From a virus, in the IMG/VR virus record IMGVR_UViG_3300033148_004295, positions 1-48,007 of that record: a stretch of DNA of 48,007 nucleotides; one strand, 5' to 3'. Under the pieces are notes generated by a model. It had not been told where the DNA came from, made no database searches, and saw only the letters and a program-made list of their open reading frames with translations. Below are positions 3,635-33,953 of this stretch, one piece after another. Both the position numbers and the translations under genes were made by a program. Every line of letters begins with the position of its first letter. The first letter of the stretch is position 1.

Positions 3635-6511
3635 ATGAGTTTAACAAACCCCATACCACAAATAAAAAGAGAAAACTGGTCATCCGCAATTGAGTTTTCC
3701 AAAAAAACCAGACAGGCTTTACAGCAGCTGGCCCATCTTAGACTTGGTGTAGATTCCTCACCTACGTTTGCAAGTTTAACCCTTAATGACCTTACTGCTA
3801 CTCGATTAGTTCAATCAAGCTCCACAAAAGAATTAGTGTCAGTTTCAGACTTAACAAATTGGATAGCTGGAACCGCTAATGAGATAGACATAACTGATGA
3901 TGGTGATGGTACAGTTACTATTGGGATTGTCAATCCACTAATAGTTGGCAAGGGAGGTACAGGTGCAGCCACACTAACAGACCATTCTTTATTAGTAGGT
4001 TCGGGGACAGACCCAATTACAGCTTTGGGGGTGGCTGCAAATGGACAGTTACCTATTGGCAGTACCGGTGCTGACCCTGTACTTGCAACCTTAACCGAAA
4101 CAGCTAAGCAAGTCTTAGTAACAAACGGGGCTGGTTCAATCACACTCTCAACACCACAGGACATAGACACAGACTCATATCCTGTCTTTATAAATACCAA
4201 CACTGCTTTATCTCCGATGATTATGACAGGCGGTGAAATATCAGAAGGAACAAACGCAGGAACAGTCAAGGTTGGTGCTTTGACAGCAATGCTCAGAACT
4301 ACTGATTCTGAAACAGGGACACTCACAAGAATAACATTAGCCGAGCAGGACAATATAACCCTTGCTGCTGCGGATACTTTTTATAATATCATACTGACAT
4401 ACGGAGACCCTTGCACAATAGCTACTTCTGAGAGTAGTCCTGCCGGAACCAATGCAATAGGAATAGGGCATTGTCTCAAAGAAGCTAACGATACCTTACA
4501 CTATTCTATTGCAGGATTAAGGCTTAACGATGGTGTAAGAAAATTACACCACAGGGCCAGCAAATTACGCAATATTGAAAAAAGTTCTGGTTGTGCAGTA
4601 GCAAGTACAGGAACAAGGAACTTTACAATTAGTTCAGGCTATTTTTATCGTGGAATAAATCAATATTTTTTTACAGAAAAAGACACATCTGATACCGACA
4701 CATTTGACTACTTTTATTATAATCCAACAACTTCTGCTTGGGTTAAAGATAACAATGGTGGTGCTCATTATACTGCGTTAGATAATGTTCAGTATAATAA
4801 CGTAGAAGCGGGTACGGGTTTAGCAAATCTTACAGTAAATAAATATACAACCAATTGGATATTTGTTCATCCAGACGACGGGCACATTATAGTATTGTAT
4901 GGTCAAATTAACAGCACTTTGACAGACGCAGAGAATGATGATATTCCAGCAAACCTGCCCCCGATTATAGACAAGATGGGTTGTTTGTTAGCTAAGGTTA
5001 TAATTCAACAAGGTTCAGATACACTTGTTGTAGAAAATTTAGAGTATTTTACATTTGAGCGAGATATTACAGTTGACCATAATGAGTTAGCTGGATTGCA
5101 AGGTGGTACGACAGACGAGTATTACCACATGACCGCTGCGGAACATACATTAAGCGCAGCTATACTGGCCCTTACTCCTACAGACGGAAACTTTATTGTA
5201 GGAGACGGGGCTACTTGGGTTACAGAATCAGGAGCAACTGTACGAACATCAATGGGTTTAGGCACAGCAGACAATGTTGAGTTTGCTGGTATAACTGGAA
5301 CAAGTCTTGATTTAAGTGCCCACGAAGTAACTTGTGGAAGTATAAACAGAGCAACAGGGACTCTGACCTTAGAAGTTGGTGGAACCCCACAATTATCTCT
5401 TTCCAGTACGGTAGCTACTTTCGCCGGTACTATTGTTGCTGCGGGGGGTAATCTTAACCTCGGTGTCGATGACACCACCAGAGGGGTGATAACTGCCTAC
5501 GGCCCAAGTGCGGGTGTTTATGGTGGAACCTTATCGTTGCACACAGGAGCAGAACACGATGACGCAATAGAGTCCTACTATGTTCGAGCTTATGAAGATG
5601 ATTTACAAATAGGTGGGACTGCTGGGGTTGCTGTAACTATAGCTGGAACTACGGTTACTTATGCTGGTGATGTAGTTATAACAGGCACAGCTACCTATTC
5701 GTCTAATATCATAATTCCCAATGATGGTTGGATTGGTTCGGTAACAACAAATCAGGCCATACAAATTGCTTCTACAGGAAATATCACAATACCTCAAAGA
5801 CTCGATGTTACGGGGGATGTCCAGGTAACTGGAAATATATTGTTAATGACAGATAATGGGGGGGTTGGTTACAGTGATAACTCACCAATGCTTGTGTTTA
5901 ACAATGCCGATGACCAAGTGGAAGTTACCGGAAAACTTACAGTATCCTCCACAGCCACGGTTTCCGGGGACCTCACAGTCAATACAAACACATTGCATGT
6001 TGATAGTTTCAATGCCTATGTTGGTATAGGCACACTCACCCCTGAAAGAGCACTTCATATTGAGGATGGGGAGATTGTGGTTAAACATGTTGGCAGGTCG
6101 AGGTTAATTTTTAAAGCTTACACTGCGGGGGATGTTGAGGATGCCCCCGGCTTTGATTTCCTAAAATCACGCGGCAACACAATAGGGTCTGATGTTGAAA
6201 CTCACGATGGGGATTTTTTGGGGCGGCTTATTTGGTATGGGGTGGACAGTGATAATGATGACAGAGTAGCTGCTAAACTAATGATTATTCAAGATGGGGA
6301 CTCAACAGGGAGTGATGTTCCTGCAAGTTTTGAGTTTCACACCGAGCAAGCAAATCCTGCGGGTTTAGCCGCAAGATTTACTATTCTTTCTGATGGCGGT
6401 ATAGTAGTCCCCTATCTTAAATCTGGCACAACACAGGCCAACGCTGGTGCTGCTGCTGGTGAATTGTGGGTGGATACTGACGATAGTAATAGAATTAAAA
6501 GAGGAACCTAA
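3635..6511 (+). CDS. Tail fibre / receptor-binding protein
   Basis: 958 residues. The sequence is low in charge and rich in Thr, Gly and Ala, with repeats typical of trimeric fibres (GSGTDPITALGVAANGQLPI, VTNGAGSITLSTP) and beta-helix-like stretches (TGTATYSSNIIIPNDG). The C-terminus ends in GELWVDTDDSNRIKRGT, a common fibre ending. The N-terminus (residues 1-60) probably anchors to the tail. ATG 3635 is used because an in-frame ATG at 3590 lies inside the previous gene, and AAGGTG sits just upstream. It probably determines host range by binding a surface receptor. Confidence 0.8.
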   Translation: MSLTNPIPQIKRENWSSAIEFSKKTRQALQQLAHLRLGVDSSPTFASLTLNDLTATRLVQSSSTKELVSVSDLTNWIAGTANEIDITDDGDGTVTIGIVNPLIVGKGGTGAATLTDHSLLVGSGTDPITALGVAANGQLPIGSTGADPVLATLTETAKQVLVTNGAGSITLSTPQDIDTDSYPVFINTNTALSPMIMTGGEISEGTNAGTVKVGALTAMLRTTDSETGTLTRITLAEQDNITLAAADTFYNIILTYGDPCTIATSESSPAGTNAIGIGHCLKEANDTLHYSIAGLRLNDGVRKLHHRASKLRNIEKSSGCAVASTGTRNFTISSGYFYRGINQYFFTEKDTSDTDTFDYFYYNPTTSAWVKDNNGGAHYTALDNVQYNNVEAGTGLANLTVNKYTTNWIFVHPDDGHIIVLYGQINSTLTDAENDDIPANLPPIIDKMGCLLAKVIIQQGSDTLVVENLEYFTFERDITVDHNELAGLQGGTTDEYYHMTAAEHTLSAAILALTPTDGNFIVGDGATWVTESGATVRTSMGLGTADNVEFAGITGTSLDLSAHEVTCGSINRATGTLTLEVGGTPQLSLSSTVATFAGTIVAAGGNLNLGVDDTTRGVITAYGPSAGVYGGTLSLHTGAEHDDAIESYYVRAYEDDLQIGGTAGVAVTIAGTTVTYAGDVVITGTATYSSNIIIPNDGWIGSVTTNQAIQIASTGNITIPQRLDVTGDVQVTGNILLMTDNGGVGYSDNSPMLVFNNADDQVEVTGKLTVSSTATVSGDLTVNTNTLHVDSFNAYVGIGTLTPERALHIEDGEIVVKHVGRSRLIFKAYTAGDVEDAPGFDFLKSRGNTIGSDVETHDGDFLGRLIWYGVDSDNDDRVAAKLMIIQDGDSTGSDVPASFEFHTEQANPAGLAARFTILSDGGIVVPYLKSGTTQANAGAAAGELWVDTDDSNRIKRGT

Positions 6512-19013: not shown

Positions 19014-19369
19014 AATTTTTTCCTTATATTCAACAACGTTTCTTCACTTAAACTTTTCAAACTAACTTCTTTACCGTTCACTTTCACTGTGATTTCAATC
19101 TTTGGCTTGGCTTTTTTGACAAACTCAAGGCAAAAGAATGGAAAGCAGTAACCACAGGTTTCATCCAAAAACAAACTATGTCTATCAATGCGGGATATTT
19201 TGCAAGTTTGACCAACAAATTTTCCTTTTGCACTTGTCTCATATCCAAAACTGCCCAATTCGTTATTTACAGTTGGTGTTCTCAGTACCTTAACCATATC
19301 ACCGACTTCTGCATCATATAGTTTAACCCACTCTGCCTGTAATATTTTGTATGCTTCTTCTACAGTCAT
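19010..19369 (-). CDS. Paralogue of the 114-residue gene flanking groES
   Basis: 119 residues. The N-terminus (EEAYKILQAEWVKLYDAEVG, then DMVKVLR) closely matches the gene at 19695-20039 (REAYQVLQAEWVKLYNVEVG, then DTVKVLR). The C-terminus (IEITVKVNGKEVSLKSLSEE, then TLLNIRK) is a module also present at 19.7 and 22.4 kb. Residues 35-90 look like a small beta barrel. Family unknown to me. ATGA overlap with groES upstream suggests coupled translation. Confidence 0.75.
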   Translation of the reverse strand: MTVEEAYKILQAEWVKLYDAEVGDMVKVLRTPTVNNELGSFGYETSAKGKFVGQTCKISRIDRHSLFLDETCGYCFPFFCLEFVKKAKPKIEITVKVNGKEVSLKSLSEETLLNIRKKL

Positions 19370-19698
19370 TTTGGTTTCCTTTCTTTAATAGGTTTCCTTT
19401 CTTTAATAATTGATAAAACGTAGCTGTCATCCATTAAAATTACATAATTACTTCCGTCAAAATCAACTTCCATTTGACCAGGCCCCTCTGGTGCGTACAA
19501 AATCTTATCCCCAACATTTACTTGTGGTTTAATTAACACCCCGCCAATAGAAGATTTTAAACCCGGCCCTACCGCTACAACCTCACCTTCTTGAAATGAG
19601 GCGTACCTACTACCGGGCAATTTAATACCACCAGAGGTTTCATCTCTAACAATCTTCTTTACTATAACTCTGTTTCGTATAGGTACTAATGTTTTCAC
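19366..19698 (-). CDS. GroES-like co-chaperonin
   Basis: 110 residues: LVPIRNRVIVKKI, then GGIKLPGS, EGEVVAVGPG, VNVGDKILYAPEGPGQMEV and NYVILMDDSYVLSII. This is the GroES fold, including a mobile-loop region near residues 18-32. Phages such as T4 (Gp31) and RB49 supply a co-chaperonin so that host GroEL folds the capsid protein; the same role is inferred. A C-terminal extension (KERKPIKERKPK) is encoded by an 18-bp tandem duplication. It overlaps both neighbours, which are paralogues of each other. Confidence 0.85.
   Translation of the reverse strand: MKTLVPIRNRVIVKKIVRDETSGGIKLPGSRYASFQEGEVVAVGPGLKSSIGGVLIKPQVNVGDKILYAPEGPGQMEVDFDGSNYVILMDDSYVLSIIKERKPIKERKPK
19373..19408 (-). repeat. 18-bp tandem duplication at the groES 3' end
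   Basis: The plus-strand unit GGTTTCCTTTCTTTAATA occurs twice in a row (19373-19390 and 19391-19408) without mismatch. It encodes the repeated KERKPI of the GroES tail, and each unit contains AAAGGAAAC, so the ribosome site for the following gene is also duplicated. Confidence 0.95.
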
Positions 19699-33438: not shown

Positions 33439-33468
33439 ATTATACCATAAATGGTCTTATCTTGTCAA
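33439..33468 (-). promoter_or_regulatory. Sigma70-type promoter P7
   Basis: Minus strand: TTGACA (33463-33468), 18-base spacer, TATAAT (33439-33444) preceded by ATGG. It produces a leader of about 265 bases before the first gene. The shared 21-bp motif lies 66 bp upstream at 33534-33554. Confidence 0.8.
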
Positions 33469-33533
33469 GGAAAAAGTGAAATAAATCTGCCCAAAATAGT
33501 AGATTCCGTGGAAATTACTCAAAAATAATCCCT

Positions 33534-33554
33534 ACAATCATTATAATTGTTATA
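33534..33554 (+). promoter_or_regulatory. Shared 21-bp motif, copy 2
   Basis: ACAATCATTATAATTGTTAT then A, upstream of P7 and read opposite to it. The first 17 bases form an inverted repeat (ACAAT-N7-ATTGT). Matches the copies at 26751 and 33744. Confidence 0.6.
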
Positions 33555-33580
33555 GCTTAACACCCCCTGTTGGGGGCAAT

Positions 33581-33615
33581 ATCTAACATTCCAAAAAGTT
33601 AGATACTTATCTAAC
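33581..33615. promoter_or_regulatory. Three ATCTAAC heptamers
   Basis: ATCTAAC at 33581-33587, its reverse complement GTTAGAT at 33598-33604, and ATCTAAC again at 33609-33615. A candidate operator between the divergent promoters P7 and P8. A CCCCC-TGTT-GGGGG hairpin lies just to the left (33563-33576). Confidence 0.5.
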
Positions 33616-33648
33616 ACGATTTTTAAGCTAAAAATAAGGGTGTGCTTA

Positions 33649-33734
33649 TTAAGAGAATATTAAGATTCTATTAAGATTACTGAAATTATACTTATTAAGA
33701 AAATGTTAAGATTATATTAAGATTTATGTTAAAC
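33649..33734 (+). promoter_or_regulatory. TTAAGA direct-repeat arrays (11-bp period)
   Basis: TTAAGA begins at 33649, 33660 and 33671 (steps of 11 and 11), then at 33695, 33706 and 33717 (11 and 11), with a degenerate TTAAAC at 33729. Direct hexamers every 11 bp are the arrangement bound by OmpR/PhoB-family response regulators. The arrays lie 85-170 bp upstream of the P8 -35 and are the most ordered repeat in the window. Confidence 0.7.
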
Positions 33735-33769
33735 TGTAATGATTATAACGATTATAACGATTACAGTTT
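33731..33769. promoter_or_regulatory. Shared 21-bp motif, copy 3, within a 10-bp inverted repeat
   Basis: AAACTGTAAT (33731-33740) and ATTACAGTTT (33760-33769) are perfect inverted repeats. Between them GATTATAAC occurs twice in tandem. The reverse complement of 33744-33764 is the 21-bp motif found upstream of P4 and P7. It lies 55 bp upstream of P8. Confidence 0.65.
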
Positions 33770-33819
33770 TTATAATACTAAATTATTTGCAAAATATCAA
33801 GAAATTATGAAGATTTTTC

Positions 33820-33848
33820 TTGACTTTTGTTCCTAATTATGGTATAAT
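33820..33848 (+). promoter_or_regulatory. Sigma70-type promoter P8 (late/structural operon)
   Basis: TTGACT (33820-33825), 17-base spacer, TATAAT (33843-33848) preceded by ATGG. It is the only promoter of this consensus found on the plus strand and would drive the terminase and structural genes. RNA would start near 33855. Confidence 0.88.
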
Positions 33849-33886: not shown

Positions 33887-33926
33887 CCTGGGGCTGTAGT
33901 CCGGTATAGAAGCGACACAGCCCAGG
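33887..33926 (+). other. Leader hairpin of the plus-strand operon
   Basis: CCTGGGGCTGT (33887-33897) pairs with ACAGCCCAGG (33917-33926): ten base pairs with one bulged G and a 19-base loop. It lies in the RNA leader between P8 and the first gene. It may control stability or translation; no T run follows, so it is not a terminator. Confidence 0.55.
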
Positions 33927-33953
33927 CCCATAAATCTTAACATTTGGATTTAT

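Follow-up and report, generated by a model that had tools for sequence, protein, structure and literature searches.

What do phased TTAAGA hexamers do in the gap between the two divergent operons of an unclassified phage, and which protein reads them? The stretch of DNA analyzed here (the window) comprises the 48,007 bases of IMG/VR record IMGVR_UViG_3300033148_004295; it carries a 114-base terminal direct repeat, has a unit of 47,893 bp, and is the complete, circularly assembled genome of that phage. Leftward genes start at ~33.2 kb and rightward genes at ~33.95 kb, leaving an intergenic region of ~790 bp. The left, or replication, operon has the DNA polymerase A gene near its head and further encodes a DnaB_C helicase, SSB, an exonuclease, NinG, a GroES-like protein, and a TOPRIM-like primase assigned by eye. 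The right operon opens with a small zinc-finger-like ORF, the terminase small subunit (TerS), and a terminase-like large protein, and its later genes were called structural by their position. The GroES-like product is a phage co-chaperonin (Cpn10, E 9e-16) encoded at 19366-19698 on the minus strand. tRNA and close database searches of the window returned no match, and no Rfam family was detected in the window or its close relatives. Identification of the host through a related prophage was dropped, since a search of the genome contigs found no terminase relative, and the annotated phages were too distant.

The hexamers fall into two groups on the plus strand. Array a (33649-33676) has exact TTAAGA copies starting at 33649, 33660, and 33671, and array b (33695-33722) at 33695, 33706, and 33717, both in 11-bp steps; a degenerate extra hexamer, TTAAAC (33729-33734), follows 12 bp on. 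All of these lie where the original prediction had placed them. The DNA is noncoding, with a G+C content of 16%, and, as expected of an operator for an OmpR/PhoB-class response regulator, it repeats a 6-8 bp site directly two or more times at ~11-bp steps. Single TTAAGA hexamers are not over-represented in the contig (43 found, 50 expected), whereas exact TTAAGA-N5-TTAAGA pairs are limited to the four within these arrays, and the reversed control pattern is absent throughout. In 20,000 simulations under a first-order Markov model of the local AT-rich intergenic DNA, 0.0004 pairs and no triples arose, against the four pairs and two triples observed, and no other period in the stretch is as strong as 11 bp. 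This phasing rules out pure chance. Local duplication has left its mark in the form of a 34-bp block present at 33645-33678 and again at 33691-33724, 46 bp apart and 91% identical, and this duplication is the reason that the window has a second triple. Low complexity or duplication alone, however, does not account for the conserved single triple of the relatives.

Those relatives were found by a terminase-based scan together with a scan for the triple array itself. Three close ones, L005, L007, and L067, share the gene layout of the window at 61-73% protein identity, with values of 67-75% for the polymerase and 63-74% for the large terminase. In the same divergent intergenic region, each bears one triple array, corresponding to array b (array a being an extra copy in the window only), followed at 11 bp by a degenerate fourth hexamer (GTAAGA, ATAAGA, or GTAAGT); the middle hexamer in L005 is TTAAAA. 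Across the conserved array of the four phages, 17 of 18 hexamer positions are invariant, compared with 6 of 10 spacer positions (p = 0.04). The two next relatives, L243 and L268 (~70% terminase identity), retain the 11-bp phasing with looser hexamers, TTAAAG in the former and TTAGAG/TTAAAA/TTAAGT/TAAGAT in the latter, at another spacing to the promoter, which in L268 is itself of a different type. The conservation among related phages that the original prediction called for is thus borne out in the close clade and fails in relatives with ~45-56% identical terminases, none of which has an 11-bp array upstream of terS.

Two promoters flank the arrays. The rightward one, which the original prediction called P8, reads TTGACT-N17-TATAAT with an extended element, TATGGTATAAT (33820-33848, plus strand), and the leftward promoter of the replication operon reads TTGACA-N18-TATAAT (33439-33468, minus strand). 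All four phages place the rightward -10 exactly 126 bp from the start of the last TTAAGA of the array, with zero gaps in the intervening sequence at 70-87% identity. The distance to the leftward -10 is instead 129, 221, 221, and 257 bp, and every pairwise alignment there contains gaps. A constant spacing on the right and a variable one on the left argue for coupling of the array to the rightward promoter, that of the structural genes. This fixed placement is confined to the four close phages and is not kept in L243 and L268. Directly upstream of the rightward -35 lies a degenerate, promoter-proximal pair, TCAAGA-N5-TGAAGA (33797-33813, plus strand), whose counterparts are TTAAGA-N5-TAAAGA in L007 and L067 and TTAAGA-N5-CAAAGA in L005. 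It, too, is rigidly placed, each of the four phages having 80 bp between it and the final hexamer of the array. On the other side, between the left promoter and the arrays, is a dyad, GTTAGATA-CT-TATCTAAC (33598-33615), kept in L005, nearly kept in L067 and L268, and absent from L007.

The same arrays recur in bacteria. A scan for triple TTAAGA in one genome per bacterial or archaeal species returned at least 118 stretches, nearly all of them intergenic among the matches listed. Gene names at these sites were read from the sequences and from Pfam tallies. Among the matches listed, the array separates a histidine kinase gene from a BcrA-type ABC transporter in Paenibacillus and Bacillus, and an OmpR-family regulator from a transporter of that type in Tenericutes/Bacilli; it precedes pstS in Firestonebacteria, Ignavibacteria, and Omnitrophica, and pstB or pstA in Brocadiaceae. 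With genes farther off in the same loci as the control, and again among the matches listed, ABC_tran was found in 25 of 100 genes starting at an array (4 of 95 far genes) and the PstS-type PBP_like_2 in 7 of 100 (0 of 95), while genes ending at an array included HisKA in 15 of 92 (3 of 95) and the OmpR-type Trans_reg_C in 12 of 92 (2 of 95). The corresponding p-values are optimistic because the matches include related species (Paenibacillus/Bacillus, Tenericutes) that are not independent. Bacterial arrays do sit next to two-component genes of the OmpR family or to typical targets of such systems, in matches drawn partly from related species. -10-like hexamers peak at fixed offsets from them in both orientations. 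One phylum, covered by 199 genomes, gave five matches in four of them, one of which had been picked because of its match, compared with none for the reversed pattern. A close likeness is to the two-component/BcrA-type ABC operators of Paenibacillus and Bacillus (L120, L192, and others), in which three TTAAGA and a degenerate fourth follow one another in 11-bp steps. These differ from the phage in having a -10 immediately after the fourth hexamer, at an offset of 20, where the phage has only a TATAAC (offset 21) and its good promoter is 126 bp off. A rightward promoter directly at the array, using this TATAAC 21 bp past the last hexamer in three of the four phages (AATAAC in L005), was considered and set aside as possible but weak. 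Among other IMG/VR contigs, L053, L112, and L076 also have TTAAGA/CTTAAY arrays, several in some; L053 and L112 place a TATAAT-like -10 after the array at the Pho-promoter offset of 11, making these candidate phages with host-regulator promoters.

A second comparison is with Pho boxes, the sites of PhoB, SphR, and PhoP, which have been defined as 11-nt direct repeats (PMC4415409). Cyanobacterial SphR/PhoB sites string together three or more CTTAACCT boxes of 8 bp, separated by 3-bp linkers (PMC1906773). The cyanobacterial SphR core, CTTAAY, is the complement of TTAAGA (PMC1906773). On the minus strand, array a becomes CTTAATAG-aat-CTTAATAT-tct-CTTAATAA and the phage array CTTAATAT-aat-CTTAACAT-ttt-CTTAATAA, that is, CTTAAYA every 11 bp in the layout of a Pho box. 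The resemblance extends to the number of direct repeats (two, three, or more), the AT-rich 3-bp linkers, and the intergenic position beside a promoter. The differences lie in polarity and context. In pst promoters, CTTAAYA boxes read towards the gene and end ~10 bp (10-12) before the -10; phage boxes face left, with their backs to the structural promoter, whose -10 lies ~125-150 bp downstream, and there is no phosphate gene nearby. Nor is there a convincing -10 at an offset of 10-12 leftward of the array in any of the four phages. One candidate, a minus-strand TATAAT at 33690-33685 after array b, was rejected as the -10 of a leftward Pho-type promoter since it is 4 bp away rather than 10-12 and is absent from the relatives. 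Boxes that replace the -35, end ~10 bp before the -10, and read towards the gene are therefore not what the phage has. Because its boxes point leftward with no -10 at the Pho offset, the array is not a standard Pho promoter, and it is in its anatomy that it appears to be a Pho-type operator.

Together, these comparisons favor, tentatively and at a little less than an even chance, a reading of the arrays as a multi-site operator for an OmpR/PhoB-class response regulator, most likely that of the host, tied to the structural promoter. Bacteria use sites of this type to dock regulators that sense nutrients and stress, and through one of them the phage may time its late genes by a host signal. Our restraint has a precedent: predicted Pho boxes in phages often fail binding tests and are unreliable (PMC10976474), which is why the reading is held at this level. 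The host's regulator is the likeliest candidate because no response-regulator domain, OmpR-type winged helix, or other regulator family was recognized among the phage proteins scanned. A winged-helix regulator, probably supplied by the host, would read the array head-to-tail, one site per helical turn. Cooperative binding might then spread from the strong array to the weak, conserved pair abutting the -35, across intervening DNA of constant helical phase. Given the good sigma-70 elements of the promoter, the regulator would tune it and not be its only switch. The sign of this control could be either, activation or repression of the structural promoter; the array has its center ~150 bp ahead of the rightward -10, a long way off for a classical activator. 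Response-regulator control of P8, as the original prediction had it, is supported in part, by the retained array with its fixed 126 bp to the promoter and by the bacterial arrays beside OmpR-family two-component genes and pst/ABC operons.

Host two-component control of phage core genes has already been shown for a few cyanophages. In the nearest published example, host PhoB binds several promoters of cyanophage S-PM2d, including that of the DNA polymerase (PMC10976474). Like the window, S-PM2d and P-SSM2 carry putative sites for a host two-component regulator within the phage genome, at core genes such as DNA polymerase (PMC10976474). In those phages, however, the boxes are scattered and weak, whereas a conserved multi-site array marks the divide between structural and replication genes here; and they are cyanophages, while the phage of the window is unclassified, with no auxiliary phosphate gene recognized. 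If the operator reading is true, a phage lineage unrelated to these would offer a clear example of virion production linked to host physiology, through a conserved, rigidly spaced multi-site operator at its structural promoter. Triple TTAAGA (CTTAAY) arrays may also serve as a usable marker of OmpR-family operators in several bacterial phyla.

The reader of such an operator could instead be encoded by the phage itself, as a regulator with no recognized fold, for example one of the small zinc-ribbon-like ORFs or an unassigned left-operon protein, acting on the rightward promoter. Phage late promoters are commonly under phage factors, and many left-operon ORFs match no family. Wider relatives open the left operon with the gene for a Sigma70_r4-like helix-turn-helix protein, which is missing from the clade of the window. 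The explanation nevertheless seems distinctly unlikely: TerS is the only helix-turn-helix protein found among the window proteins scanned, and the motif coincides with a widespread type of bacterial operator. The Sigma70_r4-like protein, ~100-120 aa long, was seen in L249, L258, and L263 (Pfam-tested) and in L255, L256, and L260 (by eye). Its gene is the first of the left operon, beside that of DNA polymerase, where the clade of the window has zinc-ribbon-like ORFs. L268, at both of its divergent promoters (5017-5034 and the left one), and L258, at its left promoter, have another promoter type, about GAACAAA-N(4-7)-TTGAGATTCGTATA, compared with TTGACA/TATAAT in the window; this type is possibly read with the Sigma70_r4-like protein. 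Returning to the host-regulator operator, a bolder form of it would hold that an uncultivated phage lineage has placed its structural operon under a host PhoB/OmpR-class regulator through a strong, amplified operator of 3 to 7 sites. Late genes would be gated by a host signal (e.g., phosphate or envelope stress) without a metabolic gene of the regulon, the ancestral Sigma70_r4-like regulator gene having been lost in the same lineage. So extended, the proposal is doubtful.

The strongest rival, named as an alternative in the original prediction too, is that the locus is an origin of replication, in which the AT-rich 11-mers would serve as iterons, or as an unwinding element, next to 9-mer initiator boxes at the point where the genome diverges. 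Two distinct tandem repeat families do lie side by side: next to the 16% G+C array, between it and the rightward promoter, are three 9-bp tandem repeats, GATTATAAC GATTATAAC GATTACAGT (33741-33767, plus strand), and on the left side there is an inverted-orientation set, TACAATCAT TATAATTGT TATAGCTTA (33533-33559, plus strand), also seen by eye in relatives. The operons diverge here, DNA polymerase A is near the head of the left one, and the cumulative GC skew reaches its minimum at the array, a minimum that is fully confounded with gene direction. Origins built of iterons or 9-mers and AT-rich repeats likewise combine adjacent 11-mer and 9-mer families in AT-rich DNA at a divergence point. They differ in that no initiator gene was recognized among the phage proteins scanned, many ORFs matching no family, and in that only one clade of the phage family has the 11-mer array. 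The array therefore cannot be the core origin of this family, whose distant members do without it; two of these, L249 and L253, have the 9-bp repeats by eye with no TTAAGA array. The hexamer and its 11-bp spacing, in turn, match response-regulator operators in unrelated bacteria. An origin at this site is judged unlikely. A literature search for TTAAGA arrays in phages or origins returned nothing relevant. The 9-bp repeats (TAYAAYCNN/GATTATAAC), which flank the array in inverted orientation, are found by eye in L247 as well as in L249 and L253, all distant relatives with no TTAAGA array, and for this reason may be an older element than the array.

Packaging offers another use for the site, as a pac or cos sequence at which a ring-shaped TerS would bind the array, phased at 11 bp, a short way upstream of the terS gene. 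The distance from array to gene is ~390 bp, an HTH_23-like domain is present in TerS, and phased sites suit a DNA-wrapping ring, an established idea for small terminases. Four phages whose TerS is 36-49% identical (L011, L013, L249, and L253) nevertheless have no such array, and no mark of a genome end was seen here, the 114-bp terminal repeat sitting elsewhere in the contig, away from the arrays. The absence of the array from diverged terminase relatives makes packaging the less likely use, and we regard it as very improbable. Two other features of terS loci were seen in the relatives. Upstream of terS in L011 (4960-5420) and L013 (4340-4880), both 45% relatives, ~400 noncoding bases look mutually conserved and structured, with no Rfam match. 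In L243 (457-1387), the gene for the terminase small subunit occurs twice in tandem, the first copy being shortened.

Finally, the repeats might act as RNA. The minus-strand unit of the array, AAUCUUAAYAUU, is like a nut-type boxA and occurs once in each divergent leader, which would suit an antitermination signal; in the right leader, AAATCTTAAYATTT is conserved after a covarying hairpin, and its left-leader counterpart is present in all four phages. Yet the arrays sit between the two promoters and are transcribed from neither, so that an RNA role for them is unlikely, and exact 11-bp phasing of DNA is unexpected for boxA; the chance that this explanation is right appears slight indeed. The leader copies are of interest in themselves. 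The right leader has AAATCTTAACATTT, one inverted copy of the array unit (33932-33945, plus strand), and the left leader its counterpart, AATCTTAATATA (33376-33365, minus strand). The shared AATCTTAAYAT is thus present once per divergent leader, mirror-placed about the array and conserved in the four phages, and it resembles a nut-type boxA. The hairpin of the structural-operon leader (33890-33923) is conserved in six phages (the window, L005, L007, L067, L243, and L268), with several pairs in which both partners have changed and a loop (CCGRWAWAGAAG) that hardly varies. Hairpin and the following AAATCTTAAYATTT together possibly form an antitermination or translation-control element.
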